A stretch of DNA of 64,000 nucleotides from Sabellastarte sp. h YS-2021 (Eukaryota > Annelida > Polychaeta > Sabellida > Sabellidae): positions 161,681,609 to 161,745,608 of the forward strand of contig OZ024929.1 in assembly GCA_964017235.1 (NCBI GenBank), in the 5' to 3' direction. Position numbers and translations under genes: made by a program. Below the pieces are notes generated by a model that saw only the letters and a list, made by a program, of their open reading frames with translations, had not been told where the DNA came from and did not search any database. Position 1 is the first letter of the stretch; each line of letters begins with the position of its first letter. This document shows, piece by piece, positions 1 to 62,816 of the stretch.

Positions 1-556
1 TTTTTTTTTTTGCGAGCGATCCTCTAGTTGATCCTAGAGGTTTGGGATGATAAACCAACCTGTAGGAAATCATGGGGTGGGAATCTTTTGGTGTGGTCAG
101 ATTTGACCTTCAATGACCCCTCCTTCAAGGTCAAACAAGGATAGCCAAACTTAAAAGTGCTTATAACTCGCTTATTATTGGTCCCAGAGGTTTGGTATGG
201 TAAACAGACAGGAAATCATGGGCTGTGAATCTGTTGATATGGTCCAATTTGACCTTGGAACCCTCCTTCAAGGTCAAATGAGGATAGCGAAAATTGAAAG
301 TGCCTACAACTCGCTTATTAATGGTGACAGAGATTTGGGATGGTAAACCATCCCATAGGAAATCATTGGCTCGGAATCTTTTGGTATGGTCAGATTTGAC
401 CTTTGGACCCCTCCTTCAAGGTCAAATGAGGACAGCCAAGCTTAAAAGGGCTTATAACTCATTTATAATTGGTCCTAGAGGTTTGGAATGGTAAACCGTA
501 GGAAATCATGGGCTGGGAATGTATTTGTGTGGTTAGATTTGACCTTGGACCCCTTC
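1..556 (-). repeat. A-type tandem repeat array (~147-bp unit), left copy
   Basis: At least four tandem units, spaced about 137-147 bp, each with the phrases 'gaccttggacccctccttcaaggtcaa', 'aacttaaaagtgc', 'ctagaggtttggga' and 'aaatcatgg'. It is the reverse complement of the array at 51170-53990. Each unit carries TTGACCTT and AAGGTCAAA, i.e. nuclear-receptor-type half-sites pointing outward. The array runs off the left edge, so its full length is unknown. Confidence 0.85.
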
Positions 557-846
557 TTCAAGGTCGAATGAGGATATTGCATTTGTAGTATTTCTTTAAA
601 TATGTTTTAACCTATTTTTTACACTTAAACAATTACCTTGTTATTTTCATTCATAATACCATTTACAGGGCACAACTTTTTTATCCTTTTCTTCTGTCAG
701 CTTCGGAATTTCTTTCGAACTTGCTGTTCAGTTACCATTTACTGTATTTCTGTACAGCCCTTTTCCTGATAATTATTCTGTCCTCCAATCACCTTCACAA
801 ATCAAAAACACTCAGTCAGCTGACACAGTGCCCGTTCACGGGCACT
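557..846 (-). mobile_element. terminal part of A-type element with end hairpin
   Basis: This single-copy stretch follows the A array and is the inverted counterpart of 50813-51060. Shared landmarks are 'aatatgttttaac', 'ccatttacagggcacaac', 'cttctgtcag' and 'cagtcagctgaca'. It finishes in a palindrome at 827-846 (AGTGCCCGT, 2-nt loop, ACGGGCACT). Similarity to the right-hand copy stops within a base or two of this hairpin, so the hairpin is probably the element end. No protein is encoded. Confidence 0.65.
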
Positions 847-964
847 CTCCTCTTGTTAATCTTATATGTTTGTAACGTCCTCGATGGCCAAACTTATTGC
901 CAAGTGTGGCATCCAATCACAGGTTGTCGCCTCTATGGGTTCAATGCCTCCAAGTGGCAATGCT

Positions 965-1200
965 GAGGGCCTGTCTGGGCCATGGTGATACAGTGGTAAC
1001 ACACTCGCCTCCCACCGCTTAGGCCTGTGGTTTAAATCCAAGACCATATATGGGAAAGTTGGTAGTTGCTTGCCGATGGTCGGAAGTTTACAGTACAGAA
1101 CCTTGGCCAACTGTATGTACTCACTGTACTGGTTTCCTGAGCCCTTAAAACTATATCGTGATATGACATATAAAGTGTTGAAAGTGACCCCAAATAAACT
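965..1200 (+). mobile_element. tRNA-derived SINE, family 2 (copy 1)
   Basis: It has a tRNA-like head with an A box (GTGATACAGTGGTAACAC, about 982-999) and a degenerate B box (TGTGGTTTAAATCC, about 1026-1039). The body shares 'gtagttgcttgccg', 'acagaaccttg', 'ccaactgtat', 'ggtttcct' and 'cgtgatatgac' with the inverted copy at 37631-37860, and the 3' part reads 'gtgttgaaagtgac…ccccaaataaa'. More diverged than the second copy. No target duplication found here. Confidence 0.7.
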
Positions 1201-1440: not shown

Positions 1441-2320
1441 ACACAGATTTTATTTTGTGTGACCCTGAAAAGTAAACATAATTACATGGGAAGATAATAT
1501 TACATTACTGTTACTGTTCTTATATTGTACTGTAAAAAATAAACAGTATTTTACAGACTAAACTTGTCTTTTTAGCTCTGTCATAAAATAGCATTTTCAA
1601 TGGCCTACTCTTATTATCTCCCGCCGGCACGCCAGGCAGGAGATTATAAAACACATTCCGTGCGTGCGTGTATGTGTCACGTTTTTAAAAAGGGCTGTAC
1701 ATCATACTGGTTGTTTCTCCTTGGCCTTTTCAATGTTTTATGACCTTATTGCTTATGTCGATCTTTTCATTTGATGCTGTTTTTTCAGACCTAGGTCCAT
1801 AGCTAAGTGAGTAATAGCAATGGTGGCTACTTTCAGTAAAGTGCTCATAACTCAAAAACGACTGCATTTAGAGCATTTCTGTAAAATATGTTGTTCAGCT
1901 ACTTTCTCCATGCCTAGAAGATGGTACCATTTTTAGGGGTTTATCTTGATAGCTAAGTGTGAGTAATAGCTATTTTCTGTTTTTAACAATGACCAAAATG
2001 AGTAAGTTGCTTTTATCTTTGTAACTGTAACTTACAATATTGGTCTCGAATATGTTGTTGAACAACTCCTTCATGTACTATATCATGGTGGGGTTTCCAA
2101 GGTGTAGCACCATAGATAGCTGAGTAATAGCTACACTAAGTTTAACATTTGACCATTGAGCAATTAATTATAACTCAAAAACTATTGAATATGCAGGATT
2201 TTTGTCAAATATGTTGTTCACCTACTTTTTGATGTACTGTGTCGTGGTGAATTTTCAGAGCTGTAAGTCCATAGCTAACTGAGTAATAGCTACTTTTAAA
2301 TTTCTTAATTTCAACATTCA

Positions 2321-5300
2321 ATACATCTTTTGTATTTAGTGCGCACCGCGGAGACGTCTTTTTTTGTAAATAACAAAAGAAACCCTGTTTGGTACATAAG
2401 TCTAGGCGAATATAAGAAGCTTTTAATATATATTGCAAGGAAACTAAATAATATCCACAATATGTGTAATCTGTGTTCCTATTACCAATGCTGTAGCTTG
2501 TATTTGCATGTTTATTGATAGTACGGGTATTATCGCCCATTTAGCGGGAATTATCGGCCCAGATTTATTGTGAGTTATTCCTATTTTACTGATATTTTAG
2601 TCCATTGTTGTTTTTCACTGTAGTGGCTGTCAATATCCCCTGAATATCATAGTCATTCTCCAGTTTCTGGTCATTCCAATTGTTGTTTTTTCACTGTTGT
2701 GAAATATCTACTGAATACAATTGACTATTTTGTTAGTCACTCCAATACTTTCCTTAAGCTTAAGGCCATCCCCTCTTCGATTCACTTTAGGGAAATTGTT
2801 TATTCTAGAGGCTCAGTGAGGAGTGTAGGGTGCCCGTGAGTCGCCCACGGGACGGAATTTAGAGTGGACAGACTGTGTCACATAGTAACTAACTAATTAG
2901 AATTAGGGCATACTGGTGTTACTCCTCACGGTCCTGTTCTTAGTTTAGGGAACTGGAGTGCAATGAGTACCATCCGCTGGTTGTTCCTCTTACTGTTGTT
3001 TTGGAGAAAGTCAGTAAGCAGTGATCCTAATGTGTTTATTCCGTTGTCTGCTCATGGTCTTACGTCATTACCACGCCCCTACAGACTCCACAGCTATGTC
3101 CTGAATACACATCTTTTCCCTTGTGTGGCTAAGCGTCATGGCCTTGCGACCTTATTGTTGCTTTGTGGTGACATCTCCCTTAATCCTGGACCAATCTCGT
3201 TTGGGGTGGTAAATTGCCGATCTGTAAGAAACAAGGGACCCTGCATCGATGATACTGTAACAGTACATTCTGTCGACATTCTTGCTGTCACTGAAACACA
3301 TATTCGCCAGGAGGAAACGGACAGCCTTCTACATTCCATCACCCCGACAGGCTTCAAATTCTGCCACAAACCCCGTATTCATGGCCGTGGTGGTGGTGTC
3401 GGATTTTTTATCAACAAAGCTATACAGTTTAGATCTGTGGACACACCTACTTTCAGTTCCTTTGAAAATGTTAGCATTGCAATTGGGTCGGCGGCTCAAC
3501 AGCCTGTGTTGACTTGTGTTTATCGTCCACCTGGCTCATGCTCTGAAAGTTTCCTGGACCAATTTCTCAATCTTTTAGAATATTTATCCTCTGTTTCTCC
3601 CTCTTTCCTAATTTGTGGGGATTTCAATATTCATGTGGATACTTCTTCAAATGATAGTATCAAATTCCAGAACTGTTTAGAATCATGCAATATAACACAA
3701 AATGTTCAAACGGCTACCCATCTACATGGTCATATCCTAGACCTTGTTCTTACTCCTACTGATGCCAGTGTCATCTCTAATGTACGAGTTGCTGAATTTA
3801 TTTCTGATCATGCTCTTGTCCTTGCTCAGCTTGACTCAGTTAATCCTCCTTCACATAAGGCAAAAGTTGTCACTTTCAGGAGGTATCATAAAATTGACAT
3901 GGACAGTTTTCGTAAGGATTTGGGAAATAGCGCATTCGTAAAATGCCCTGGTGATACAGTCAGTGGTTTGTGTGAACAATACTTAGATGATTTGAGCAAA
4001 TTGCTCAACAAGCATGCACCATTGGTTACTCGCACTTTTACTAAGCAAGCTACTGGTTGGCTATCTGACACCTACAGGCTGGCAAAAACCATCAGGCGAC
4101 AGCTGGAACGAATCTGGCGTAAAGATAAATCTGCCTATAATCGAGCTAGACTTCGAAGACAGATTGGTCGCTGCAATTCACTGGTCAACAAAGATAAGGC
4201 AAATTACTTCAGAAACCTGGTCAAAGAAAATACCAATGACTCCAAGAAGCTATGGCAGGTCTTGCGTTCCGCACTGCACTCTAGTCCTGAAGCAGTACTC
4301 CCTTCTCATGAATCTAAGAAAGGTCTTGCTGACCGGTTTGTCACTTTCTTCAGTGACAAAATAGATAAAATCAGAAACTCATTTTCCTCTAGTGACTCAT
4401 TCACTCTGCCTCCTCCACCTGATGTACCCAATTTCAGCTGCTTTAAACAAGTTTCTCAAGAGGAAATTAGAAAAATTATCATGAAGTCACCCACTAAATC
4501 TTGTTTGTTAGACCCATGGCCTACATTTCTTGTTAAGGAATGTATTGATATTTTACTGCCCTCTATCACCAGGCTTGTTAACTGCTCGTTGTCAGAAGGT
4601 GTTGTACCTGATGAATTCAAGAAGGCTATTGTAACCCCATTGATTAAAAAGTCATCACTACCACCCAATGACTTAAAAAACTACAGACCTGTTTCTGGGT
4701 TGGGCTTCATATCCAAACTGGTTGAACGTGTTGTTGCTTCTCAGTTGAATGACCATGTTAGTTTGAACGGACTGGAGAATGTCAGGCAATCTGCCTACAA
4801 ACTAGGTCACTCAACTGAATCTGCATTGCTTTCAATTAAGAATGATGTTCATTTGGCTTTTGCTAAAGGTGAGGCTACTGCTGTCGTTCTCTTGGATCAA
4901 TCAGCAGCGTTTGATACTATTGATCATGATACGCTACTTAATTCTCTTAGCTCCTGGTTTGGTGTGAGCGGGGTTGTCCTCGATTGGTTTAAGTCTTATC
5001 TCTCAGACCGTGTTCAGTGCATTAAGATTGGGTCAATTTTATCTGATGCCAAAAAGTTATTGTATGGTGTGCCTCAAGGCTCTGTCCTGGGGCCAATCCT
5101 TTTTTCACTCTATACTACTCCACTGAGTAAAGTCATACAGAATCATCCTGGTATTAGTTTCCAGTTCTACGCTGATGACACACAATTGTATGTACACCTC
5201 ACACATAAAAATGTTGCCTCGGCCCTTGATAAGCTGTCACACTGCCTTGAAGACGTAAAGAAATGGCTCTCTACAAATAAGCTCAAGCTAAATCCAGATA

Positions 5301-6191
5301 AGACCGAATTCATTGTGTTTGGCTCAAAGTCTCAGCGCGAAAAACTTAATCAGTCCTTCCCGGTCAACATACTTGGTAATCTCATATCACCAACAGATGC
5401 AGTTAGGAACCTTGGTGTCTGGTTTGATTCTGATTTCTCATTCTCTTGCCATGTTAGGAAGGTCTGCAAGGCTTGTTTTGCTCATGTCCGGGATCTTAAG
5501 CGACTCCGAGGACATCTGACACATGAAGCTACTCTTATGGCTGCCAATGCTCTGGTCGGAAGTCGACTAGATTACTGTAACTCTCTGTTCAGAGGTCTCT
5601 CAGCTCTAGATCTGCGCAAACTTCAATGTGTTCAAAATAGCCTGGCCAGAATTGTTGCCAACACCACCAAGTACTCACACATCACTCCAGTTAGAAAAGC
5701 ACTACATTGGTTGCCAATTAAGTACCGTTCTATCTTTAAGACTGCCATGTTGGTATATAAGTTCCTACACAGTGGTAACCCCAAATACTTTGAACTCTTC
5801 CTCATTCCCAGACATAGTGCATATAACACTCGTCGAAGTCAATCTGATGGCATATTTCTTGAGGTTCCCCACTTTGGTTCAATTTTCAAGTCTCGAAAAC
5901 ATTTTGGACTCAGTTTTGCGTATGACGCACCTATGATTTGGAATGACCTTCCTGATGAGGTCCGCTCTGCAAACTCACTTGCCTCTTTCAGGTCAAAGTT
6001 GAAGTCATACCTCTTTGGAAAAGCATACCCACCCTAAATTTCCAATCTCCTTTCTGCTTTCTCCGCGGTGCTGACCCCTGCAATGTCTCTGGTTTTTGAA
6101 TATTGAACAATGTTTTTGTGTGATGCGCCTTAGAGTCATTCTTTTGACAGAGATTAAGCGCTATAAAAGTGCTATTAGAATTAGAATTAGA
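2321..6191 (+). mobile_element. full-length-looking LINE (CR1/L2-like group)
   Basis: This non-LTR retrotransposon is inserted in a B-array unit. The unit breaks off after ATTCA (2316-2320) and resumes with ATTCA (6192-6196), giving a likely 5-bp target duplication. The 3' end has 'gagattaagcgctataaaagtgc' followed by an (ATTAGA)n tail, as in CR1/L2-type elements. About 640 bp precede the ORF and could be 5'UTR. One uninterrupted ORF is present, so the insertion is probably recent. Confidence 0.8.
2963..6037 (+). CDS. LINE ORF: 2A-like motif, APE endonuclease, reverse transcriptase
   Basis: The protein is 1024 aa and unbroken. Residues 1-20 are hydrophobic and signal-like (MSTIRWLFLLLLFWRKS). 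GDISLNPGP at residues 69-77 matches the 2A ribosome-skipping core D(V/I)ExNPGP except for Ser in place of Glu; skipping would fall between G76 and P77. An APE-type endonuclease follows (about 80-292) with VTETHI, YRPPGS, CGDFN and SDHALV. The reverse transcriptase (about 550-800) has LDQSAAFDTID, GVPQGSVLGP and FYADD at 735-739, so the catalytic Asp pair is kept. The C-terminal region has the HWLPIKYR and YAPMIWN-like blocks typical of CR1/L2-type LINEs. No gag-like ORF1 was found upstream. 2A-like sequences at this position are documented in some animal CR1/L2/Crack LINEs. Assignment to one clade is uncertain. Confidence 0.9.
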   Translation: MSTIRWLFLLLLFWRKSVSSDPNVFIPLSAHGLTSLPRPYRLHSYVLNTHLFPCVAKRHGLATLLLLCGDISLNPGPISFGVVNCRSVRNKGPCIDDTVTVHSVDILAVTETHIRQEETDSLLHSITPTGFKFCHKPRIHGRGGGVGFFINKAIQFRSVDTPTFSSFENVSIAIGSAAQQPVLTCVYRPPGSCSESFLDQFLNLLEYLSSVSPSFLICGDFNIHVDTSSNDSIKFQNCLESCNITQNVQTATHLHGHILDLVLTPTDASVISNVRVAEFISDHALVLAQLDSVNPPSHKAKVVTFRRYHKIDMDSFRKDLGNSAFVKCPGDTVSGLCEQYLDDLSKLLNKHAPLVTRTFTKQATGWLSDTYRLAKTIRRQLERIWRKDKSAYNRARLRRQIGRCNSLVNKDKANYFRNLVKENTNDSKKLWQVLRSALHSSPEAVLPSHESKKGLADRFVTFFSDKIDKIRNSFSSSDSFTLPPPPDVPNFSCFKQVSQEEIRKIIMKSPTKSCLLDPWPTFLVKECIDILLPSITRLVNCSLSEGVVPDEFKKAIVTPLIKKSSLPPNDLKNYRPVSGLGFISKLVERVVASQLNDHVSLNGLENVRQSAYKLGHSTESALLSIKNDVHLAFAKGEATAVVLLDQSAAFDTIDHDTLLNSLSSWFGVSGVVLDWFKSYLSDRVQCIKIGSILSDAKKLLYGVPQGSVLGPILFSLYTTPLSKVIQNHPGISFQFYADDTQLYVHLTHKNVASALDKLSHCLEDVKKWLSTNKLKLNPDKTEFIVFGSKSQREKLNQSFPVNILGNLISPTDAVRNLGVWFDSDFSFSCHVRKVCKACFAHVRDLKRLRGHLTHEATLMAANALVGSRLDYCNSLFRGLSALDLRKLQCVQNSLARIVANTTKYSHITPVRKALHWLPIKYRSIFKTAMLVYKFLHSGNPKYFELFLIPRHSAYNTRRSQSDGIFLEVPHFGSIFKSRKHFGLSFAYDAPMIWNDLPDEVRSANSLASFRSKLKSYLFGKAYPP

Positions 6192-6792
6192 ATTCAGTAA
6201 ATCACTTATACCTCCCAAACTATTGAATTTAGGGAATTATTGTCAGATATGTTAATCAGTTACTTTTTAATGTTCTGTGTCGTGGAAAAGTTTAGAGCTG
6301 TATCTCCATAGCTAACTCAGTAATGGCTACTTTGAATTTCAACATTGAGTAAAATCACTTATAACTCCAAAACTATTGAATTTAGAGAATTATTGTCAAA
6401 TATGTTGTTCACCTACTTTTTGATGTATTGTGTAATGGCAAATTTTGAGACCTGTAGGTCCATAGGTAACTGAGTAATAGCTACTTTGATCGTTCTCCAT
6501 TGAGTAAATCATTTATAACTGCAAAACTATTACATTTAGAGAATTTTGGTCAAATATGTTGTTCACCTACTTTTTAATGTTCTGTATTGTGGCAAAGTTT
6601 CAGAGCTGTAAGTCCATAGCTAACTGAGTAATAGCTACTTTGATTGTTTTCCTTTCAGTAAGTCACTTTTAACGGCAAAACTTTTGAATTTAGAGGATTC
6701 TTGTCAAGTATGTTCTTCACCTACTTTTTGATGTATAATTGTGTAATGGCAAATTTTGAGAGCTGTAGGTCCATAGCTAATTGAGTAATAGC

Positions 6793-7181
6793 TAGGGCTG
6801 TAATCATTAGTGATTTCTGTAGATCGAGGATCGACTGTTAGATGCGAGTTGAACTCAAGTTGAACTCGAGTAAATTACACAAATATAAATAAAATAACAA
6901 TGTCCAAATATTGTAATTAAGGGATCCGCCATTACGTACAGATCTATATGAGCACTTTATGGAACAGCCACGTAAATCAGGGAAATAAAAAAACGACCAT
7001 TGCTCATTGATTTTTACGTCTTTGTGGTTAAAAAAATTGCAAAAGTGGTAGTTTGTAACAAGATTAGTATATCATTATATATTTCTTAAAAACTCGAGTT
7101 TAAATTGCGTAAACCGATGTGATCCCCAAATATCGCCCATCGAGTTACGACTCGAGTTTCGGTCAACTCGTTACAGCACTA
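6793..7181. mobile_element. hAT-type MITE with 8-bp target duplication
   Basis: The termini are TAGGGCTGTAA and, inverted, TTACAGCACTA (10 of 11 match). The flanks are identical 8-mers GTAATAGC at 6785-6792 and 7182-7189, the length made by hAT transposases. The interior is 389 bp, non-coding, with several 'actcgagt' repeats. It sits in a B-array unit directly beside the DIRS insertion. Confidence 0.85.
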
Positions 7182-7583
7182 GTAATAGCTATTTTATTAC
7201 GCTACAATAGCTTACCATGTGGGACTTAATGCTGTTCTCGGGTTGCCACACCCGGGGCCAACGTCTTAGAAAAAAAGATCGTTCTTGTTAGCCACCGGAT
7301 ATACTGGTAGTTGTTGTCACGTGATAACTTCTGACCAATCGCCCTACTTTCTCGTTGGCCACGATTGACTGGTAGCAGTTTGTAAATATACAGACATTTT
7401 CATTTATTTCTCAGTCTTTAAGTATTGTTGGAGGCTAATATTTGAATATTTCATTTCATATATTTCATAGATTGTTCTGTAAAATTATTGATTTCACAAC
7501 TTAAGTATTTTCCTTACAATCCGCGTGTTTTGAGTTTTCTCGGTTCAGGCAATTTCAATTGTACGTCTTTTTATTGCGTTAAA

Positions 7584-8624
7584 ATGTCTCTCCATCAAGC
7601 AAACAAAGACAAACCGAGAGCTCAGAAATGCCGCCATTTTTGCTTCAGTTTTGATAATCATAACTACTGCCCTACCTGTAGGGAGGCTGGCAAGGGAGAT
7701 GACCCCTGTGTCACCTTTGAAGCACCCTGCCATATTTGCATGTCTCTCACTGATGAGCAATTGCAAAAAATTCAAAACAGGAAGCGGTACTTAAAAAAGC
7801 AAAAAGTGGAAACTAGTTCTAAAGATGAACTAGATCTCTTGGGTGAAGGCGATGGGGACTCTTTTACTGGTTCCAATGCAGACCTAGAGAGTGCTGCTGA
7901 TAACCTCTTTACCTCACCCCTGCCAGTTCTTAAGGAGCTGGAACATCAGGCTAGACAAAATATTTCAACCCTCAATTTCACCACTGCCTTTGCCAAAACC
8001 TCTTCTTCTTGCAATGCTTCCTTGGAAAAGTGCCAACATAGCATTAAGTCAACTGTCAAGAAGATAAAATCTCAGATCCAGAAAGGTGCCAATCGTGAGA
8101 AAGCAGCAAAGCGCGGATATGAGGAAGTTGCTGAGTACTTGGATTTTTGGAACAAGACGGTTCTTGTTCAACATAGAGCTCTTACCTGTCTCAGCAAATC
8201 TCTAGCCCATATTCTCCAGAGGGAATTATATTCCATGGCTAATACCGGCTTGCTTAGGCGTGAAGCCGAAATGACTCTATTACATCCCCAGCTAGGGGAA
8301 ACGAGACGCCAAGAACTTAGGAACTCGTCCTTCTGGGACTCCTCCTTGTGCGAGTCTCAACTCGTAAAGGAAGGTGAGGACTTCCTTCTCAAAAAAGGCA
8401 CCTCAAAAGATTCTCAGGGTTTCGCACCCTACCAGAATAAGCCCTTTCGTGGCCCCCACAAGAAAAGAGGCTCCTACAGGAAACACCCCTATGGGGGCAA
8501 TACCTCTCAAAGCAGTAACCAATCCTTTCCCTCGGGAAGAGGAAAATCCAACTTCAGAGGCTCCAGGGGTCGTTTTCGACCCCACAATAGGGGAAGGGGG
8601 CGTGGAAACCCCCCTTCTCAATGA
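7584..8624 (+). pseudogene. DIRS copy 1 gag-like region (fossil)
   Basis: This is the N-terminal cysteine/histidine-rich part (CRHFCFSF, YCPTCR, CHIC) followed by charged sequence and an Arg/Gly-rich tail (GRGRGN) that suggests nucleic-acid binding. It is shorter than the matching region of copy 2 at 59126-61285. The start is taken at the ATG that begins MSLHQANKDK, which both copies share. It is reported only as a fossil part of the element. Confidence 0.75.
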
Positions 8625-8690
8625 CTCCTCCAAAGCCTCACTCAGTCCACCAGTAGGAAGTCACCTCTTCAAGAGAGACTGGCTAATAAA

Positions 8691-9872
8691 TAGTGATCTC
8701 AACGGGTATCCGGATATCCGGGTACCCAAACCATGAATGTTTACCCGAATCCGAAATCACATACCCGAGTACCCGAATCTAATTAAGCTTTATTTCTGTC
8801 AATATCGCCCAAGTTGGCTGACCAAGTACAGACGTATCTGGACTTCATTAATTCACTTAAAAATGAAACTACCGTAGCCGCGCTCCGTAACGCTCATGCT
8901 TTTGAAAGCGCCCATCCACAATCTTACGTTATCGCTCATATGTCGTTTCGAGGTAAACTGTCTCCATATAAACCCAATAATCGGTGAAATATTATTAATT
9001 TATATCAATTTTCAACAACAGTTTCCTTATTTTAGCAGTTATGACAACTTTTATTGCATCGAGATTTGTTTACCAACTGCATATTTTACTTCCAGTCGGT
9101 GTGTGCTAAAACGCGGTTTCCCTAAATTCGGGTTATTTTTTTTCGAAACGCCCGGCTGGTTTTCATTGTTGTAAACGCCCATCCCCAACTTTCACAAATA
9201 TTTGGTCACATTGCCCATGGGCGTTACAGAGCGCGCCTACGGTATTCAATTAAAATGCAAAAGAATATTGTTTTCTCACCCTTGTTCACCACTTATAGTA
9301 TTTTATTTGTCTTTTATTTTGGTTGTTTATGCATTGTTAAATGCCGATACCCTTTGAAAATCGTCAGTATATTGACACAGTTATGTAATTCCGAGTACAT
9401 GAAACGTTGTATATATTGCCTATATAATGACATGCACACCTCAAATAAATGAAAGTACGATATTTTCAAACAGTAGTTCATAATTTAGCATCAATAAAAT
9501 TCACTTACCTGCCTGAAGAAAAAATAAAGTTTCAATTCTGAAACTACATTCGAGCAACAGTAAATGCTTTACTGATAGGTCATGTGACTCCACTTTTATG
9601 GACACTGCAATAAACAACCGTGTTTTGAATGTACAGAAATCTTTTCTTGGTTAACATTTCTTCTGTGTCGGACTGTTTTGAATGCAAAAAAGGTGGCTGA
9701 CGAGAAATAAAGCAAATGGTTGGATCCCATTATTTGTGTAAGTTTTAAGTTTGTAAATGTGGAGATTTTTGTACTATCACATATTATCGCCCATCGGCGC
9801 GAGTACCCAGGTACCCGCCCGCTGAAATCAATACCTACCCGGTCCCACCAAAAGGGTATTTTGAGAACACTA
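8691..9872. mobile_element. hAT-type non-autonomous element inside DIRS copy 1
   Basis: The flanks are identical 8-mers CTAATAAA at 8683-8690 and 9873-9880. The ends are TAGTGATCTCAA and, inverted, TTGAGAACACTA. Subterminal sequence is rich in GGGTACCCG/CCCGAATCCG-type motifs near both ends. Copy 2 of the DIRS element has the empty site, which confirms the insertion. No transposase is recognisable. It carries a further MITE at 8870-9244. Confidence 0.85.
8870..9244. mobile_element. MITE nested inside the hAT element
   Basis: The 24-bp terminal inverted repeats begin TACCGTAGCCGCGCTC at 8870-8893 and match 9221-9244 inverted with two mismatches. If the outer TA is the target duplication, the ends would be CCGTAG…CTACGG with TA flanks, which would suit a Tc1/mariner-type MITE. 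The family is not certain. The interior is about 330 bp and non-coding. Confidence 0.75.
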
Positions 9873-9889
9873 CTAATAAACAAATGTTC

Positions 9890-14127: not shown

Positions 14128-14404
14128 TATGAAAATAAGTAAAGCGCTTTTTAAGTTCTCATTTGGACAAACCCACCCCTTTCAAAAAATGGTTTTAGTC
14201 ATGTGACTTCTCCGATTGGTCAAACTGTCATGACACTATATTCAGAATTTTTTTCCAGGGCTGCTGCATACATATGTTAAATTTGAAGGAAATCTGACAA
14301 GTGGTTGAGCTATAGCCAATTGAAAATGCATGATAGAGCAATTTCCAGTGAAAATTTGGCCCATTACTAATTCTGTCGGTAATTTAAAAATACTACTTTT
14401 CTTA
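14128..14404. other. unassigned spacer
   Basis: AT-rich sequence between the last B unit and the Harbinger element. I see no coding potential or inverted repeat. It includes 'tgaaggaaatctgacaagtggttgagctatagcc', whose wording resembles dispersed repeats but which has no second copy here. Confidence 0.3.
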
Positions 14405-17790: not shown

Positions 17791-17962
17791 TTTACAGAAC
17801 TTAATCTCTGTGGAAGCAAATTTTATATGGATGAACAAAAGTAGGGATTTTGAAGTGCTTTGTGTAGTTTTTCAATCTGACTTATGTTTTTTCATTGCAT
17901 TTTAAGGATCTTTGAGACTTCGTTGTTGTGAATCTTTGTTTGACATTAAAAGGGGAAATCTA

Positions 17963-26500: not shown

Positions 26501-26504
26501 CTAA

Positions 26505-50812: not shown

Positions 50813-51835
50813 AGTGCCCGTGAACGGGCTCTGTGTCAGCTGACTGTGTGTTTTGAGTTTCAGAGTAGAAGTGACAGAAGAAAAAAACACAAAAGTTGTG
50901 CCCTGGAAATGGTGTTTGGAAGAAAACTAAGAAGGTAACTGTTAAGGTGTAAAAAGTAAGTTAAAAACATATTTAAAGAAAATATTGCAAATGCAATAGT
51001 TTTAATTTTACTATGTTATAGCTGACCCCAAAATATGTGAATAACACACTGAAACTAGACCTATAGCATCGGAGAACTGATGCAAATTGTATCCACCAGA
51101 AAACTCACAAAAGCCATTAAAACATGCTTAACCTTGGAGCTCAAGGTGAAATCTGACCATGTCAAAAGATTCTTAGCCCATGATTCCTATGGGTTGGTGT
51201 GACATTGCAAACCTTTAGGAACACAAATAAGCGAGATATAAGCACTGTTAATTTTGGCTTTCCTCATTTGACCTTCAAAGAGGGGCCAAAGGTCAAATCT
51301 GATCACATCAAAAGATTCCTAGCCCATTATTTCCTATAGGTTGGTTTTCCGTTCCAAACCTCTAGAACTAATAATAAGCGAGCTATAAGCACTTTTAAGT
51401 TTAGCTATCCTCGTTTGACCTTGAAGGAGGGTTTCAAGGTGAAATCCAACCACACCAAAAGATTCTCAGCCCATGATTTCCTAGAGGTTGGTTTTCCATC
51501 CCAAACCTCTAGGACCAATAATAAGCAAGTTATAAGCACTTTTAAGTTTGGCTATTTTTGTTTGACCTTGAAGGAGGGGTCCAAGGTCAAATCCGACCAC
51601 ACCAAAAGAATCCAGGCCCATGATTTCCTATAGGTTGGTTTACCATCCCAAATCTCTAGGACCAATAATAAGCGAGCTATAAGCACTTTTAAGTTTGGCT
51701 ACCCTCTTTTGACCTTGAAAGAGGGGTCCACGGTCAAATCCGACTACACCAAAAGAATCCAGGCCCATGATTTCCTATAGGTTGGTTTACCATCCCAAAT
51801 CTCTAGGACCAATAATAAGCAAGTTATAACCACTT

Positions 51836-53231: not shown

Positions 53232-54069
53232 TATAACCACTTTTAAGTTTGGCTATTTTTGTTTGACCTTGAAAGAGAGGTCCAAGGTCAAATCCAACCA
53301 CACCAAAAGAATCCAGGCCCATGATTTCCTATAGGTTGGTTCACCATCCCAAACCTCTAGAACCAATAATAAGCGACTTAAAAACACTTTTCAGTTTGGC
53401 TATCCTCGTTTGACCTTGTAGGAGGGGTCCAAGGTCAAATCCAACAATACCAAAAGATTCCCAGCCCATGATTTCCTTTAGGTTGGTTTACCATCCCAAA
53501 CCTCTAGGACCAATAATAGGCGTGTTATAAGCACTTTTAAGTTTGGGTATCCTCATTTGACCTTGAAGGAGGGGTCCAAGGTCATATCTGACCACACCAA
53601 AAGATACCCAGCCGTGATTTCCTATAGGTTGTTCTATCATCCCAACCCTCTAGAACCAATAATAAGTGAGCTATAAGCACATTTAAGTGTGGCTATCCTC
53701 GTTTGACCTTGAAAGAGGGGTCCAAGGTCAAATCCGACCACACCAAAAGAATCCAGGCCCATGATTTCCTATATGTTGGTTTACCATCCCAAACCTGTAG
53801 GACCAATAATAAGCGAGTTAGAAGCACTTTTAAGTTTGGCTATCCTCGTTTGACCTTGAAGGAGGGGTCCAAGGTCAAATCCGACCACACCAAAAGATTC
53901 CCGGCCCATGATTTCCTATATGTTGGTTTACCATCCCAAACCTCTAGGACCGATAATAAGCGACCTATAACCACTTTTCATGACTGATAAAGAAACACCT
54001 GTGGCGGCCATGTTGTTTTGTTTTTTTTTTCAAAATGAGGACCCAAATATTTGCAGTCAAGATTTTATA

Positions 54070-55368
54070 ATGAGGAACATATCCTGCTGTCCGGTGGATA
54101 CAACTAAATACTCTAAATGCAATACTTTTGAAGTTATAAGTGATTTACTCAACAGTGATAACCTGAAAGTAGCTATTACTCAGCTATGCCATGAGCTACA
54201 GGTCTAAAATTTTACTATGTTATAGCTGACCCAAAAGTAGCTGAATAACATATACAAACAAATTACTGTAAATGCAATAGTTTTCAAGTTATAAGTGACT
54301 TACTCAACAGTGATGACCTGAAAGTAGCTAATTCTCAGCTATGCCATGAGCTACAGGTCTGAAATTTTACTATGTTATAGCTGACCCAAAAGTAGCTGAA
54401 TAACATATTTACACAAAATGCTCTAAATACAATACTTTTCAAGTTATAGATGATTTAGTGTTGAGTAAAAACCTCAAAGTAGCTATTACTCAGCTATGCA
54501 ATGAGCCACTGCTCTGGAATTTTACTATGTTATAGCTGACCCCAAAATAGGTGAATAACATGTGAAAGTAAATACTCTAAATGCAATACTTTTCAAGTTA
54601 TAAGTGATTTACTCAACAGTGATAACCTAAAAGTAGCTATTACTCAGCTATGCCATGAGCTACAGGTCTGAAATTTTACTATGTTATAGCTGACCCAAAA
54701 GTAGCTGAATAACATATTTACACAAAATTCTCTAAATGCAATAGTTTTCAAGTTACAAGTGATTTTACTCATGATGTAAGTTACTGAAAAGTCCAAAAGT
54801 AGCTATTACTCGCTTAGCTATTGAGATAGACACCCAAGTTACTCACCATGTTGTAGCTATGGAAAAAGTAGCTGAATAACATATTTAAATAAAATGCTCT
54901 AAATGCAATACTTTTCAAGTTATAAATGATTTAGTGTTGAGTAAGAACCTCAAAGTAGCTATTACTCAGCTAAGCAATGAGCCATTGGTCTGGAATTTTA
55001 CCATGGTATAGCTTACCCCAAAATAGGTGAATAACATATGAAACTAAATTCTCTAAATACAATACTTTTCAAATTATAAGTGATTTACTCAACAGTGATA
55101 ACCTAAAAGTAGCTATTACTCAGCTATGCCATGAGCTACAGGTCTGAAATTTTACTATGTTATAGCTGGCCCAAAAGTAGCTGAATAACATATACAAACA
55201 AATTACTGTGAATGCAATAGTTTTCAAGTTATAAGTGATTTACTCAACAGTGATAACCTGAAAGTAGCTATTACTCAGCTATGCCATGAGCAACAGGTCT
55301 GAAATTTTACTATGTTATAGCTGACCCAAAAGTAGCTGAATAACATATACAAACAAATTACTGTAAAT
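54070..55368. repeat. B array (~158-bp units), left of DIRS copy 2
   Basis: Units share 'aatgcaata(c/g)ttttcaagtt', 'ataagtgatttactcaacag', 'agtagctattactcagctat' and 'ccatgagctacaggtctgaa'. The array continues at 61677 after the DIRS insertion. Two variant unit types alternate irregularly ('gagccactgctctgg' against 'gagctacaggtctga'). Confidence 0.85.
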
Positions 55369-56056
55369 TTGAAAATTTTAATTACTTAAATGTAGCTTTT
55401 ATAAGCTACAAGCCTACCATGTGGGACTTAATGCTGTTCTCGGGTTGCCACACCCGGGGCCAACGTCTTAGAAAAAAAGATCGTTCTTGTTAGCCACCGG
55501 ATATACTGGTAGTTGTCGTCACGTGATAACTTCTGACCAATCGCCCTACTTTCTCGTTGAAATTTTTTATTAAACCTACCCCTCAGCTGTAAACAGCGGG
55601 GAGGCAGGGTGGGACTCTTATAAAAGCTACATTTAAGTAATTAAAATTTTCAATTTTATTACGCTACAATAGCTTACCATGTGGGACTTAATGCTGAATT
55701 CAACCGCCCGGTGGCGGGATTACAGCTGAGACTGGAAGATATGTAATTTTTTTTTTCTAAGATTTGAATTAATATATACAGAATAGTGCCAGAAATGCCA
55801 GTCTGAGTCCCTTTTACAGAGCCCCGAACCCGAAGATCGGGCCTGTAATGAGCCAAAAACCTAAGTAAAAAGGGACAGTGCTAAAACTGTCCAGATGTTT
55901 GGTAGTAGGACGGAAGTGCAGCGGTGCTCACTTCGAGGTCTAAGGGTCCCTATTAGACCTTCACGTGTGACTGACCAACCCAGTGGTTGGGTATCTCATG
56001 AAATTTTTAACCTGAAATATGAGATTAATGACAACTGACTAAGTCCTTAATAGAAA

Positions 56057-59050
56057 TTACCTGATAATTAAAAAATAAAATGACCTTACCCGTAACATCT
56101 TGAAGGTAAAGGAATACCTAGATCCTGGGAGAGACTCCTGAAGACTTGGTTGTAGCGGATGTGCCCCCCCCCTTTTTTCTTTCCGAGGACAACTGGTCTG
56201 AGGGGAAGGATCTAGGACTTGTTGTGCCGCCACTACGGGTCCCAGATACATATTGTTGTCGGTGTCCGACCAAGTAAGGTCTTTTAGGTAAAAATTTGTG
56301 AATGTGTTGTGAGCTTTCCAGTGACAGGCTTGCATGATTTGGTCCACCGATACTCCACCGTAAAAGGCCTTAGAGGCCGTGAAGGCCCGGATGTCATGCG
56401 CTTTGACTTGGACCAAGTCCAAGGCTTGTTGATCTGCTTGTTTGTAACAAAGTAGAATGGTTTGTTTTAACCATGAAGAGAGTGTAGCGGGTCTGATGTC
56501 TGAGGTATGTCCTTTCTTAAAGGAGATGAAAAAGAGAGAACGAGACCCTCTCAGGTCTTTAGTTCGGTCCAAATAGAACCTCAGGGCCCGCACGGGACAC
56601 AGGGTCCTGTCTTCCTTAAACTGTCTATCTACAATGGTAGTCAAAGCAGGGATAGTCACTGGTGACACACTTTGAGAACCTTCTCTTGCTAGTTGGTTTT
56701 TGGCTATGAAATCAGAAGAAGGGAACAAGGCTACCTTTTCCCATTGGCCTAAATTAGCTACTTTGTTAGCGACCCAGGCATGGATTTCGCTGCGGCGCTT
56801 GCCAGAGGCCAAGGCTAGCAAGAAAGCAGTTTTGAGGGTAAGATGTTTGAGGTCTGAGTCTTTCATGGGCTCAAATGGTGCTTTGGTGAGCTCGTTAAGG
56901 ACAACAGAAAGGTGCCACTTGGGTAAATTTCTGGAACTTTTAGGACGATCCCTGTGAAAACTGGAGAGTAACCTATGAAGGTCTGCATTGTGCGCAATGT
57001 GTTGGGCCGTTGGGCCCAAAGTGTCAACGATAGCAGTCCTGTAACCATCAATGGTCGAGGGGCGCCTGTTTAGGTCTTGGTATAGGTACATGAAAAAATC
57101 TGAGATTTGTTTCACAGATGGAGTGGAGAAATCCACCGAATTTTCTCTGCACCATTTTTCAAATAGGGCCCACTTTGACCTGTAGATGGTCCTTGTTGAT
57201 GACCGCTGAGGGGCAGCAATTCTCTCTGCCACCTCCACAGAGAAGCCTTGTTCTTGGAGTTGTCCGCTCCTAGACACCAGGCGTGGAGGTTCAGCTGTTG
57301 TGGGTTGTTGTGGAACACATAGTTGTGGGACTGTTTGAGTAGGGTCGTTGACACTGGGAGTTGTAGTGGGATCTCTGTTGAGAGCTGCACTAGGTCCCAA
57401 AACCAGGGCATCCCTGGCCAGCCTGGGGCTATCACGATGATCAGGCAATGGCATTGCTTGATCTTTTGGATCACCTTGTGAAGGAGAGCCGTAGGAGGGT
57501 AGGCGTAGGCCGTGAGGTTGGTCCAGTTTATATTCAGAGCATCTATGTTCCAGGCCCTTGGGTCTGGGATAGGAGACACATATAGAGGGAGTTTGTGATT
57601 CAGGTGAGTGGCGAATAAGTCTACATGAGGGGTGAACCACTTTCGGCAGATCTGCTTGAAGACCTGAGGGTGCAGAGACCATTCTGTTGACTGCACTTGG
57701 TTTGACCTGGATAGGTGGTCGGCCATCACATTCAGACACCCTGGAATGTGCCTGGCTTTCAATGTTATATGGTAGTGATGGCACCAGGTCATGATTTTCC
57801 ACAGGAGAGCGCACATCTCTGCTGAGTGAGTTCCCCCTTGCTTGTTGATGTAGGCTACCACTGTTGAGTTGTCCGTCGCAACTAACACTGTTTGATTCTG
57901 GCACTGGTCCTTGAAGTCTCGAAGGGCCAGGGAGACCGCCTTCAATTCCAGGACATTTATGTGTAGCCTTTTTTCCCGCTCTGACCACAGCCCTTTTGTA
58001 GAATTTTGATCTAAGTGAGCGCCCCAACCTTCGTTTGAGGCGTCGGTAAAGAGTTGGATACTGTGGTCCTTGGGATGAAGGTCTGCGCCTTTCATCACAT
58101 TTGAGGGATTTTGCCACCAATCTAGGTGGGCTACAATGGCTTCTGTCCAAGGAAGGAGGTTGTCCAGCGACTGAGGATATCTCCAGTGCTCCTTGAGATG
58201 AAACTGAAAGGGCCTCATGTGAAGGCGTCCCTCCGGGACCATTTTCTCCGTTGAGGCTAGCAACCCAATTAGAGACATCAAACATCTTGCAGTCAAAACA
58301 CGTTTTGACTTGAGTGGTAGGATCAAATCCTGAAGTTTGAGCCATCTCTCGTGAGTGGGTCTTACAAGGGCTGAATCTAGGTGGTATTCGTAGCCCACGA
58401 ACGAAAACACCTGAGTAGGTTTCAGTTCTGATTTTTCCTGGTTGATTATCCAACCCAAGGATTGGGTTAGGTCTACCACTGCCTGTGTGTCCCTTTGGGA
58501 TTCCTCCTGGGACTGGGACCTGATCAGCCAGTCGTCCAGGTATTGGTGAATTCACTTCCTTTACGATCATCGTAAAGACCTGGGGGGCTGTGGCCAGTCC
58601 GAAAGGTAGGGAGGTGAACTGGAACACCTGGGCCTTGTAGCAAAACCTTAGGTACTTCCTTGAGTTTGGATGGATGGGGATGTGAAGGTATGCGTCCGAC
58701 AGGTCTATCGACGATACCCACTCCCCTGGAACCAGGGAAGTCCGGATGGACTCCGGGGTTTCCATTTTGAACTTTTCTACATGTAGAAAAGTGTTGAGCC
58801 TGCTTAAGTCTATGACTGGTCTCCACCTTTGGTGAGGCTTGGGTACTAGGAACAGGCGACTGTAAAACCCGAGAGATTTTACGTTTTCCACCCTTTTGAC
58901 AAGAGAGACTGGATACAAGTGGCCAAGGCTTGGTCTTTTTGTTGGGCCTTGTACTCTGATAGAATCAGGGGAAATCTGATCAAGTTTGGCTTTGAACGGA
59001 ATGGCAGAACGTAGCCATTGGTGATAATGTTTAACACGTTTTGAGAACAT
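56057..59050 (-). pseudogene. DIRS copy 2 RT-RNase H and recombinase region (fossil)
   Basis: It contains the same parts as copy 1 in the same order: RT blocks (SSIDLSDAYLHIPI, LPFGLATAPQVF), RNase H (LFTDASNEGWGAHL, DNSTVVAYINKQGG) and the tyrosine recombinase (ASGKRRSE, VKAHDIRAF, HWKAHN). RT-RNase H and recombinase frames overlap, as known for DIRS elements. Confidence 0.85.
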
Positions 59051-59125
59051 TTGTTTGTTAGCCAGTCTCTCTTGAAAGAACGGAGGCGACTTCCTACTGG
59101 TGGACTGAGCGAGGCTTTGGAGGAG

Positions 59126-61285
59126 TCATTGGGAAGGGGGGTTTCCACGTCCCCTTCCCCTATTGTGGGGTCGAAAACGACCCCTGGAGCCTCTGAAGTT
59201 GGATTTTCCTCTTCCCGAGGGAAAGGATTGGTTACTGCTTTGAGAGGTATTGCCCCCATAGGGGCGTTTCCTGTAGGAGCCTCTTTTTTTGTGGGGGCCA
59301 CGAAAGGGCTTATTCTGGTAGGGTACAAAACCCGGAGAATCTTTTGAGGTGTCTTTTTTGAGAAGGAAGTCCTCACCTTCCTTTACAAGTTGAGACTCGA
59401 ACAAGGAGGAGTCCCAGAAGGACGAGTTCCTAAGTTCTTGGCGTCTCGTTTCCCCTAGCTGGGGATGTAATAGAGTCATTTCGGCTTCGCGCCTGAGCAA
59501 GCCGGTATTAGCCATGGAATATAATTCCCTCTGAAGAATATGGGCTAGCGATTTGCTGAGACAGGTAAGAGCTCTATGTTGGACAAGAACCGTCTTGTTC
59601 CAAAAATCCAAGTACTCAGCAACTTCCTCATATCTGCGCTTTGCTGCTTTCTCAGGATTGGCACCTTTCTGGATCTGAGACTTTATCTTCTTGACAGTCG
59701 ACTTGATGCTATGTTGGCACTTTTCCAAGGAAGAATTGCAAGAAGAAGAGGTTTTGGCAAAGGCAGCGGTGAAATTGAGGGTTGAAATATTTTGTCTAGC
59801 CTGATGTTCCAGCTCCTTGAGGACTGGCAGAGGGACTTTGGCTACTGGTGTCCCAGGAGGTCTAGGAGTAATACAGATCTTGGCAAAGTCCGTATTCAAC
59901 TCCTGGATTTTGTCTTGAAAAGTGGGCTGTCCAACCTTATACCACTTAGAAGTGGATGGAGGAGGCTTGACATATTTTCCCTCAGATAAATTGGCAGCTT
60001 TGAAATCATGTTGAAATTTATCAAAGGCGTCCTTGATAACTGAGCTAAGTGGTAGGATAGAGGAAGGACCTCTAGGTCTGAGCTCTTGACGGCCTTTTTC
60101 GTCATCCAGACCCAACACTGAAGTTGACGACCTAGGCATAGAGTCCCTGGGGTCAGGGAGAGAAAGAATGCGCCTGAAGGTGTCTACCTCTTCAGAGTAT
60201 TGGGAGGGAATGTCAGACAGGGCTACTTCCCTATAATAAGGGGGATCTGGATCATGTTGTGGGAGGTCTTGATCTGAAGCTGCACCTGAGGGCTGAGCCC
60301 TAGAGGGCTTAGAAGACCTGTGTCTGGCCACAGGGGAGTGATCTTCCTCTGAAGATGACACATATCTGGACCTAGATTTATGCTTGCTCTTGTCAGAGTG
60401 TTTCTTAGGTCTAGGATGGATCCGAGGTTCTTCGGAATCCTCATCCAGTTGATCCGAGGCAGAGCTCGGTGCTACTGTTTGCCTGTGGCTTTGTTTTTTG
60501 TGTGAGTACGAGGAATCCTTCGGTATAGCTTCAGAAGGGGCAACGTACTGATCCGAGGAAGTTTGATTAAGTACTAGTCGAGGAGGGAGTGCTGGACCAA
60601 CGTCCACATCCATTGCCTCGGACTGTGCATTAGTACTAGACCTCGGAGGGGGTAAGTCCAGATGAGCAGCAGATTTGCTGGATGGACCAGCTTTTGAATC
60701 ATGAGGCGAGGGATCAACCTCGGCAGGCTTTTTAACTGCCAACTCCTCTCGGAGTGATTGAAATGCTTCTAACATGGATGCCTGAAAGGAACCCATTTGC
60801 TGCTGGATATGTATATTTAAGGAATCACCCAGGGATTTCTCTAGATTTCTTTGAATTTTGTTTTGTAAAACAGTACCTGGGGTGGGAGGGACAGCTTTAG
60901 CTGGGGTCTTTAGTGATAAAGAACTGAAGGCGAGAGGTTGAGGACGGGGGGGTGAGGTAAAGAGGTTATCGGCAGCACTCTCAAGGTCTGCATTAGAACC
61001 AGTAAAAGAGTCCCCATCGCCTTCACCCAAGAGATCTAGTTCATCTTTGGAACTAGTTTCCGCTTTTTGCTTTTTTAAGTACCGCTTCCTGTTTTGAATT
61101 TTTTGCAATTGTTTATCAGAGAGAGACGTGCAAATATGGCAGGGTGCTTCAAAAGTGACACAGGGGTCATCTCCCTTGCCAGCCTCCCTACAGGTAGGGC
61201 AGAAATTATGAGTATCAAAACTAAAGCAAAAATGGCGGCATTTCTGAGCTCTCGGTTTGTCTTTGTTTGCTTGATGAAGCGACAT
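59126..61285 (-). CDS. DIRS copy 2 gag-like protein (fossil element, ORF looks whole)
   Basis: About 719 aa from the ATG giving MSLHQANKDK, shared with copy 1. An N-terminal Cys/His-rich segment (CRHFCFSF, FCPTCR, CHIC) is followed by a long Ser/Pro/Asp-rich charged region (HSDKSKHKSRSRYVSSSEED) and a conserved helical block (LEHQARQNISTLNFTAAFAK). It ends with an Arg/Gly-rich tail (FRGSRGRFRPHNRGRGRG). It probably packages element RNA, by analogy with other DIRS ORF1 proteins. The open frame continues a little upstream of the ATG. Confidence 0.75.
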   Translation of the reverse strand: MSLHQANKDKPRAQKCRHFCFSFDTHNFCPTCREAGKGDDPCVTFEAPCHICTSLSDKQLQKIQNRKRYLKKQKAETSSKDELDLLGEGDGDSFTGSNADLESAADNLFTSPPRPQPLAFSSLSLKTPAKAVPPTPGTVLQNKIQRNLEKSLGDSLNIHIQQQMGSFQASMLEAFQSLREELAVKKPAEVDPSPHDSKAGPSSKSAAHLDLPPPRSSTNAQSEAMDVDVGPALPPRLVLNQTSSDQYVAPSEAIPKDSSYSHKKQSHRQTVAPSSASDQLDEDSEEPRIHPRPKKHSDKSKHKSRSRYVSSSEEDHSPVARHRSSKPSRAQPSGAASDQDLPQHDPDPPYYREVALSDIPSQYSEEVDTFRRILSLPDPRDSMPRSSTSVLGLDDEKGRQELRPRGPSSILPLSSVIKDAFDKFQHDFKAANLSEGKYVKPPPSTSKWYKVGQPTFQDKIQELNTDFAKICITPRPPGTPVAKVPLPVLKELEHQARQNISTLNFTAAFAKTSSSCNSSLEKCQHSIKSTVKKIKSQIQKGANPEKAAKRRYEEVAEYLDFWNKTVLVQHRALTCLSKSLAHILQRELYSMANTGLLRREAEMTLLHPQLGETRRQELRNSSFWDSSLFESQLVKEGEDFLLKKDTSKDSPGFVPYQNKPFRGPHKKRGSYRKRPYGGNTSQSSNQSFPSGRGKSNFRGSRGRFRPHNRGRGRGNPPSQ

Positions 61286-61676
61286 TTTAACGCAATAAAA
61301 AGACGTACAATTGAAATTGCCTGAACCGAGGAAACTCAAAACACGCGGATTGTAAGGAAAATACTTAAGCTGTGAAATTAAAAATTTTACAGTATAATCT
61401 ATGAAATATATTTAAAGAAATATCCAAATATTAGCCTCCAACAATACGTGAATACTGAGAAATAAATGAAAATGTCTGTATATTTACAAACTGCTACCAG
61501 TCATCGTGGCCAACGAGAAAGTAGGGCGATTGGTCAGAAGTTATCACGTGACGACAACTACCAGTATATCCGGTGGCTAACAAGAACGATCTTTTTTTCT
61601 AAGACGTTGGCCCCGGGTGTGGCAACCCGAGAACAGCATTAAGTCCCACATGGTAAGCTATTGTAGCGTAATAAAA

Positions 61677-62390
61677 GCAATAGTTTTCAAGTTAGAAGTG
61701 ATTTACTCAACAGTGATAACCTGAAAGTAGCTATTACTCAGCTATGCCATGAACTACAGGTCTGAAATTTTACTATGTTATAGCTGACCCAAAAGTAGCT
61801 GAATAACATATACAAACAAATTACTGTAAATGCAATAGTTTTCAAGTTATAAGTGATTTACTCAACAGTGATAACCTGAAAGTAGCTATTACTCAGCTAT
61901 GCCATGAGCTACAGGTCTGAAATTTTACTATGTTATAGCTGACCCAAAAGTAGGTGAATAACATATGAAACTAAATACTCTAAATACAATACTTTTCAAG
62001 TTATAAGTGATTTACGCTACAGTGATAACCTAAAAGTAGCTATTACTCAGCTATGCCATGAGCTACAGGTCTGAAATTTTACTATGTTATACCTGACCCA
62101 AAAGTAGCTGAATAACATACACAAAATTCTCTACATGCAATAGTTTTCAAGTTACAAGTGATTTTACTCATGATGGAAGTTACTGAAAAGTCCAAAAGTA
62201 GCTATTACTCACTTAGCTATTGAGATAGACACCCAAGTTACTCACCATGTTGTAGCTATGGAAAAAGTAGCTGAATAACATATTTTAATAAAATGCTCTA
62301 AATGCAATACTTTTCAAGTTATAATTGATTTAGCGCATGATTTCATGAATTTTATTGCATTAAAAATTATTTTAAAAATTAATAAAAAAA
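61677..62390. repeat. B array continued, right of DIRS copy 2, with AT-rich end block
   Basis: It starts mid-unit with 'gcaatagttttcaag', exactly completing the unit cut at 55368. Four more units follow, then the AT-rich block 'gcatgatttcatgaatttta' also seen at 32208. From 62390 to 62724 the sequence is unassigned. Confidence 0.8.
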
Positions 62391-62816
62391 AAATTAAGAC
62401 AGATCCAGGTCTTATATTCACACAAGGTACTCTACTAGTGGCCTATTACATCTATGCAAGATATGAGAAAAATCCCCGCAATAGTGAATGAGAAAATTGT
62501 GATCAAGTGTTGAAATTTTCACACTTTGGGTGGGGGTACCTCACTTGTAATGGCTCTGGCAAACAGACGAACAGACAGATCTGCATGAATTTTACGATTT
62601 ATCATCCTCGATAGTTAAGGTATCTTTTAAAAAAAACAGCATGTCTCTGGGTCTTGTAGTTTTGGAGAAGAAGTTTGTCACGCGGACGCGTACACAGATG
62701 CGGATGCCGCAGAGTGATGCCATAATGTCAGCTGACTGACAAGTCAGCTGACATAAAAACAGGAGTATTGGACACTTCAATCACTATCTACTACTAGAAA
62801 TTAGCCTATGCCTCAC

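Follow-up and report, generated by a model that had tools for sequence, protein, structure and literature searches.

The closest described relatives of the elements treated here are the HINEs of the oyster Crassostrea gigas, of which eleven have been published together with 13 satellite clusters (PMC7492417). The order of parts given in that account is a 5' subterminal inverted repeat (subTIR), a complementary inverted repeat, a microsatellite, a tandem array, a 3' subTIR and a palindrome (PMC7492417). Recombined ends and arrays are described in the oyster too (PMC7492417; PMC12628747). The same oyster account relates none of its ten autonomous elements to the HINEs (PMC7492417), and the oyster elements have been called likely inactive, with the autonomous element undetected (PMC7992393). 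Helentron partners of HINEs are described in mite, Culex and Drosophila, and the Helentron signature is given as a Rep motif 2 with Y/F..R and with S between G and P (PMC4067079). A search of the literature by title and abstract opening, with most subscription journals outside its scope, returned no report of a satellite-bearing autonomous Helentron in a bivalve.

The window, a stretch of 64,000 nucleotides from Sabellastarte sp. (G000:C3:161681609-161745608), holds about eight elements of this kind, whole or partial, with one nested inside another. They resemble the Crassostrea gigas HINEs in having a 5' subTIR, a complementary inverted repeat, a microsatellite, an array of 140-180-bp units and a 3' subTIR, followed by a palindrome that is clear in families D and A. 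Like the oyster elements, they also insert at a T-rich or TT target and leave no duplication, keep a single array orientation within an element, have unrelated families next to one another, and may share an array between elements or combine two within one (PMC7492417). They differ in the sequences of the subTIRs and monomers, as far as these are printed, and in array length, one array here (42244-48541) having 37 copies while the longest in the oyster has 29 (PMC7492417). They also differ in their partners, which are unlinked in the oyster account, whereas here one Helentron (type 1) shares the terminal bases of family A and another (type 3) has an array and a hairpin (PMC7492417).

The Helentrons, HINEs and DINE-1 elements of mite, Culex and Drosophila share with those found here a Rep-PIF1 helicase-endonuclease gene, the Rep motif 2 signature (in type 1), subTIRs, a 3' stem-loop (clear here in D and A), insertion at TT, and tandem repeats in some HINEs. 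In that account too, non-autonomous copies far outnumber autonomous ones and one Helentron gene lies in minus orientation, but the tandem repeats are described for HINEs, while here an array adjoins the Helentron endonuclease (PMC4067079). Helitron2 likewise has inverted repeats that are asymmetrical, with a palindrome at either end (the 3' one being clear here in D and A), but its Rep/helicase is described without an endonuclease, and both Helentron types here have endonuclease sequence (PMC4067079). The bivalve elements pearl, DTC84 and MgE, with short arrays of central repeats of about 160 bp, are alike by description only and are now classed as HINE-like (PMC7492417); an earlier note on this DNA was right to mention pearl and HINE types. 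That note had also suggested an undescribed system. The plan instead matches that of published HINEs, including the eleven satellite-carrying ones of Crassostrea gigas (PMC7492417), and the window elements belong to a known kind.

Satellite monomers, hairpins and end motifs

Four families of satellite were delimited in the window with Tandem Repeats Finder. The monomer period is about 147 bp in A, 169 bp in C and 146 bp in D, while B has monomers of 133 bp and of about 155-166 bp and a double unit of 321 bp. When one monomer of each family was aligned in all pairs, no score exceeded the best of 60 shuffles, so that A, B, C and D are mutually unrelated, as had been claimed. Shared descent of the A and D monomers, suggested by one 10-mer that both contain, was rejected because their score also lies within the shuffles. 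The 133-bp and 155-bp monomers of B are 72.5% identical over 120 bp, exceeding 60 of 60 shuffles. As a correction to the earlier note, family B is a compound of two mutually related monomer types of 133 bp and about 155 bp.

The hairpins were folded as single-stranded DNA and compared with 200 dinucleotide shuffles each. All four beat 200 of 200 shuffles, with z of -4.2 for D (27476-27506), -6.2 for C (26470-26496), -4.1 for B (35734-35770) and -6.2 for A/B (62725-62754). The motif partner of the D hairpin is at 24438, that of C at 24901 and that of B at 32111, and the A motif stands at 50834 and at 815. Each motif was counted as an exact word on both strands of the whole genome (1.786 Gb), with the word read backwards as control. 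The counts are 33,027 against 78 for D, 12,611 against 27 for B, 17,459 against 682 for C, and 21,383 against 134 for A, where a single site may count twice because the word is nearly palindromic. The excess over the reversed word is thus about 26- to 467-fold across the four motifs. Subterminal inverted repeats of 11-15 bp, as in HINEs, are found in all four families. The hairpins and recurring motifs therefore lie where the earlier note had put them, and the genome-wide excess confirms them; the element with the hairpin at 62725-62754 needs correction, since it carries both B-type and A arrays.

Anatomy, termini and target sites

The families have a common plan. Read from the hairpin, it consists of a T-rich target, the 5' subTIR with its complementary repeat, a microsatellite and the tandem array, followed on the far side by a second subTIR, a 3' tail and again a T-rich target. 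The complementary repeat beside the 5' subTIR accounts for the four hairpins (z -4.1 to -6.2). In D the order is a T-run, TACCCCACAGCC-CTTAAG-GGCTGT(C)GGGGTA, a G+C-rich repeat, the D array, GGCTGTGGGGTA, a tail with GCATCTCTGATGC, and a T-run. C has TT, the ATGTCCACCCC hairpin, a GGCGTCC-like repeat, the array, GGGGTGGACAT, a tail with ACACATGATAATGTGT, and the end CTATTTCTAGTT. B has the TTATCTCCCGCC hairpin, a GTGC microsatellite, the ~155-type array, the 133 array, GGCGGGAGATAA and the end GAATGCTTGTT, and a second B subfamily (3 of 14 rows) ends in GGCCTTGTT. A has the ATGTCAGCTGAC hairpin, one or more arrays, GTCAGCTGACA and GTGCCCGTTCACGGGCAC; its 3' end is CTCTTGTT in three of four ends and ATTGCTTGTT in the A/B element. 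The microsatellite inside the 5' end is clear in B (35671-35720), takes the form of short G+C-rich repeats in C and D, and is weak in A. Between the 3' subTIR and the terminus, the palindrome beats the shuffles in D (z -3.0) and A (z -3.6) and is within their range in B (z -0.01), C (-1.6) and the type 1 Helentron (-0.4).

Oyster HINEs have the same order of parts in their published description (PMC7492417), which makes the hairpin the 5' end and identifies the lone motif as the 3' subTIR. By this convention the polarity of the earlier note is reversed. The lone motif had also been taken as a terminus; it is subterminal, and the 3' end lies 22-80 bp farther out across the families, 80 bp in C. 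Array orientation relative to the 5' end is the same in all 31 testable ends, and eight more have no array in reach. Of the motif neighbours within 5 kb at the first 100 listed places, 25 of the 35 D pairs run plus then minus, as do 11 of the 22 B pairs.

Borders of B, C and D were aligned over a few dozen motif loci from the first megabases of C1. The 5' motif is directly preceded by TT in all 6 D ends, in 9 of the 10 C ends and in all 3 A ends, and in B a T is found at -3 in 16 of 17 flanks and at -2 in 16 of 17. The 5' ends are TACC, TTATC and ATGTC; at the 3' end, A and B have CTTG(TT) and D has CTATTT, and CTAG is confined to C. The A border was searched with a 400-base query reaching 46 bases beyond the hairpin, which matched 39 other copies at 97-100%. 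Matches stop at query 359-363 (the hairpin ends at 354 and is followed by an A-run) in 36 of the 39 copies and continue to 365-377 in three. Homology running past the hairpins had been named as evidence against such elements, and for A it stops there in those 36 copies; for B, C and D the stop is seen in the alignments of a few dozen C1 loci. The C insertion at 24821-26496 has an empty site, since in the paralogous D copies L001 and L004 the sequence continues across this point uninterrupted. Filled and empty sites differ by the element, with TT at both edges and no longer target duplication. For A, L028 is a related Rep-relic site that lacks the A element of L029, and its empty site, seen on the 3' side only, is a T-run.

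Two groups of evenly spaced motifs were observed. Four B motifs lie in one orientation at steps of about 3.05 kb (G000:C1:16988579-16997704), and two copies of a further end type, E, lie 3,017 bp apart in one orientation (C1:33036939-33041486). They look like head-to-tail tandem elements, which partial rolling-circle rounds or unequal crossing-over could leave.

The window begins with the 3' part of a HINE-A on the plus strand (1-857), whose 5' end lies before the window. It has an array at 28-576, a 3' subTIR at 815-825, a palindrome at about 828-845 and the end CTCTTGTT at 850-857, and locus L029 has an identical 3' end. A B-type 5' subTIR with its complementary repeat follows at 1614, leading into a B-like array at 1782-2302 (1614-2302, plus strand). 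The B-like arrays at 6192-6794 and 13808-14130 may be part of the same element; no B-type 3' subTIR with up to three mismatches was found at 2300-14130. A HINE-D on the plus strand (17945-19110) has a degraded 5' end near 17945-17990, an array at about 18037-18660, a 3' subTIR at 19077-19088 and a 3' tail to about 19110.

The remaining elements are on the minus strand. A HINE-D at 24416-27506 has its 5' hairpin at 27476-27506, its array at 26567-27421, its 3' subTIR at 24438-24449 and its 3' end at about 24416. Inserted in it is a HINE-C (24821-26496) with a 5' hairpin at 26470-26496, an array at 25042-26103, a 3' subTIR at 24901-24911 and the 3' end CTATTTCTAGTT at 24821-24832; this array has a 500-bp three-unit period with 97% matches. 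HINE-B (32088-35770) has the 5' hairpin at 35734-35770, the microsatellite at 35671-35720, the ~155-type array at 33583-35505, the 133-bp array at 32267-33510, the 3' subTIR at 32111-32122 and the 3' end GAATGCTTGTT at about 32088. Only the 5' part of another HINE-D is present (41347-41763), with a hairpin extending to 41763, two D monomers, and truncation at about 41347. The second HINE-C (42024-48991) has its 5' hairpin at 48965-48991, its 37-copy array at 42244-48541, a 3' subTIR with one mismatch at 42104-42114 and its 3' end at 42024-42035. The A/B element (50802-62754) has an A-type 5' hairpin (62725-62754), B155 arrays (61672-62170 and 54098-55368), A arrays (53232-53978 and 51142-51835), an A-type 3' subTIR (about 50835-50845) and the 3' end GCTTGTT at about 50802. 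It is split by a reverse-transcriptase element with inverted ends (about 55398-61677) and a reverse-transcriptase fragment (about 51836-53231), and its two A-type ends and single orientation suggest that it is one element.

Other sequences of the window include an element of about 6.4 kb in two copies that are 95-97% identical (7178-13800, plus strand; about 55398-61677, minus strand). It encodes reverse transcriptase/RNase H, has inverted end repeats of about 166 bp, and is presumably DIRS-like. Each copy touches B-type satellite on at least one side; site-specific landing in array B was rejected, because the left side of copy 2 is array and the left flank of copy 1 is not. Open frames match an endonuclease-reverse transcriptase LINE (2897-6034, plus strand), a MADF/Myb DNA-binding domain (15647-16735, minus strand) and a KY-like immunoglobulin domain (29238-30545, minus strand).

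Helentrons in the same genome

The Rep profile PF14214 matched at least 24 places among 36 candidates scored, and the PIF1 helicase profile PF05970 matched 65. DNA searches scored the 40 best candidates and therefore favour young copies. In the type 1 Helentron (L015 and L093) a single open frame of 2245 codons, 1897 of which were read, encodes Rep, PIF1 helicase and endonuclease. Its domains are PF14214 and PF05970, with PF03372 just below the cut-off, and its Rep motif 2, YYIRVEFQHRGSPHLH, carries the Helentron signature. The 3' part of type 1 recurs at 31 other places at 98-100% identity among the 40 candidates scored, making at least 32 near-identical places and suggesting that type 1 probably moved recently. 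Matches stop at query 1322-1326 in 25 cases and at 1322-1331 in 29; position 1323 is the last T of CTCTTGTT. A listed helicase lies within 6 kb of 29 of the 32 places and a listed Rep within 12 kb of four, so many copies may be 5'-truncated, or the Rep may lie outside the matches listed. A search with the last 174 bases of type 1 brought up 1526 first-look candidates, of which 40 were scored, all of them 100% identical. Ten of these 40 are near a listed type 1 part or helicase; the other 30, with neither listed nearby, are probably non-autonomous copies.

The type 1 3' end, CTCTTGTT, equals the last 8 bases of A in three of four ends. No autonomous partner with C or D ends was found among the Rep/helicase matches listed. 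In the search proposed for an autonomous relative with the same ends, Rep/helicase Helentrons were found that share the last 8 bases of A or carry satellite B, and the full D, C, B or A ends were not seen in the loci read. Several Rep loci were rejected as partners. In the relics L025 and L013 a HINE adjoins Rep and does not enclose it, in L029 an A element is inserted in the relic (L028 being the relic without A), and L030 and L031 hold a truncated A/B fragment. The start of the type 1 protein (L015, L012, L014 and L085) has many tandem, lysine/arginine-rich units of about 35 residues (KTKRQRAEYRQAERTKDCERR...), coded by tandem DNA repeats, and at L085 a piece of this region lies about 400 bp from a C element.

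The type 3 Helentron was seen in two copies, L010 and L016, which are 98.9% alike over 3 kb and have Rep and helicase. Its agreement with the Helentron signature is partial: Rep motif 2 has W in place of S, and the endonuclease tail matches PF14529 just over the cut-off. Satellite B lies behind the endonuclease in both copies, and a hairpin follows the array in one. In L094, which adjoins L016 downstream, the endonuclease is split by a LINE (about 860-1975) and stops at about 2372, and satellite B begins 330 bp on. The order there is a partial ~155 unit, a 133-bp array (2942-3900), a ~155-bp array to about 5050 and two 157-bp units, then a GCGGAC repeat and the HINE-type hairpin E, GTATCCCCGCTTTGCGTCGGGGATAC, at 5422-5447. 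The array is 89% identical to window B over 1080 bp, and over 832 bp it is 90% identical to the A/B element. In the genome the 13-base E word has 1,915 occurrences against 0 for the control. Matches of 36 of 38 further copies (95-98%) end at query 3490-3495, so that the hairpin appears to be a shared terminus, though the test is weaker than that of A because the query reached only 13 bases past the hairpin. The L010 copy matches at 99% from the endonuclease tail onward and through 1.7 kb of the array, up to a MITE-like insert. This insert, which interrupts the B array of that copy at C1:175354435-175354754, is a short repeat with 61-bp inverted ends (L095, L067 and L006).

The E element probably, though far from certainly, spans the type 3 genes, with the gene antisense; either that is so or the E 3' end is lost or lies beyond the sequence read. 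There is somewhat less than an even chance that array and hairpin belong instead to a HINE which inserted next to a Helentron and was later copied jointly with it. In favour of such a landing, array and hairpin run antisense to the Rep gene when the hairpin is taken as a 5' end, and only two copies were seen, both damaged: a LINE interrupts one endonuclease, and the other copy has stops in its helicase stretch. The second copy's match also ends within the array, before any hairpin. Against it, with up to two mismatches neither an E-type 3' end nor a B subTIR occurs between genes and array in L094, nor an E-type 3' end in L016 or L010, the search covering all but 3,024 bases between L016 and L094. 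Moreover, two loci away from any listed helicase have 81 bp of Helentron tail joined to the array at 98-99%, as expected of deletion derivatives, and antisense genes have a precedent in Helentron-Da-40, described with its gene in minus orientation (PMC4067079). A bolder proposal, tentative and on balance unlikely, is that the Helentron is itself a satellite carrier. Its Rep/helicase/endonuclease gene would be antisense to a 5' end of hairpin, microsatellite and compound 157 + 155 + 133 bp array; at least three unrelated end types (B, A and E) would have that array at about 89-90%. The machinery would then depend more on structure (hairpin, T-T) than on sequence, and end modules would exchange satellites.

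Probable mobilization of the satellites and its significance

Families A, B, C and D are, with a probability of about 0.93, HINEs, non-coding elements that depend for their movement on Helentron Rep/helicase/endonuclease proteins acting in trans. The agreement of the plan with published HINEs, the strong hairpins, the T-rich flanks and the empty site of C at TT point to this, as do the shared stop point of the A ends, the fixed array orientation and the presence of Rep and PIF1 helicase in the genome. The last 8 bases of A in type 1 and satellite B in type 3 argue for it as well. Several observations stand against it. The 3' palindromes of B, C and type 1 are no better than shuffles allow, and the C 3' subTIR is 80 bp from the end, compared with 38-60 bp in the mite HINEs as described (PMC4067079). 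The B motif order is plus then minus in only half of cases (11 of 22), C ends in CTAG like Helitrons rather than CTTG, and full D, C, B or A ends were not seen in the Helentron loci read.

Tandem-repeat-bearing MITEs, moved by cut and paste with a DDE transposase, would likewise be short non-coding elements with inverted end motifs, and similar clam elements were first named MITEs, to judge from a reference title. Here, however, the inverted motifs are not both terminal, the 3' end being 22-80 bp beyond, one end has a hairpin and the other none, and the C empty site shows a TT repeat at most. The asymmetric ends and the lack of target duplication beyond TT, at one full empty site, make cut and paste very improbable, and it was rejected. 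Satellite arrays often contain palindromes, and ordinary satellites might have chance hairpins at their edges; the motif counts against controls, the shared stop points and the C empty site oppose this, and the counts and stop points leave it scarcely credible. A canonical Helitron, which would begin with 5'-TC, end with 3'-CTRR and insert between A and T, was rejected, since the empty site is TT and only C ends in CTAG. One kind of element packages all four satellites, as had been proposed, and they are best read as sharing one rolling-circle mechanism, in which Helentron proteins would act at hairpin end, 3' tail and TT target.

If the elements behave like others of the family, Rep would nick at T-T, and one strand would be displaced, starting at the hairpin end and finishing at the 3' end, then copied via a circle and pasted at another TT. 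Arrays would lengthen through slippage or partial rolling-circle rounds and would have moved from one element to another even where the ends differ. Satellite B is found with three end types (B, A and E), suggesting that ends and arrays have recombined.

Packaging in HINEs explains the scatter of unrelated satellites through one genome, by the thousand. Helentrons that share terminal bases or an array with satellite HINEs in the same genome are lacking in the oyster work, and with them the link between rolling-circle transposons and the spread of satellites becomes testable.
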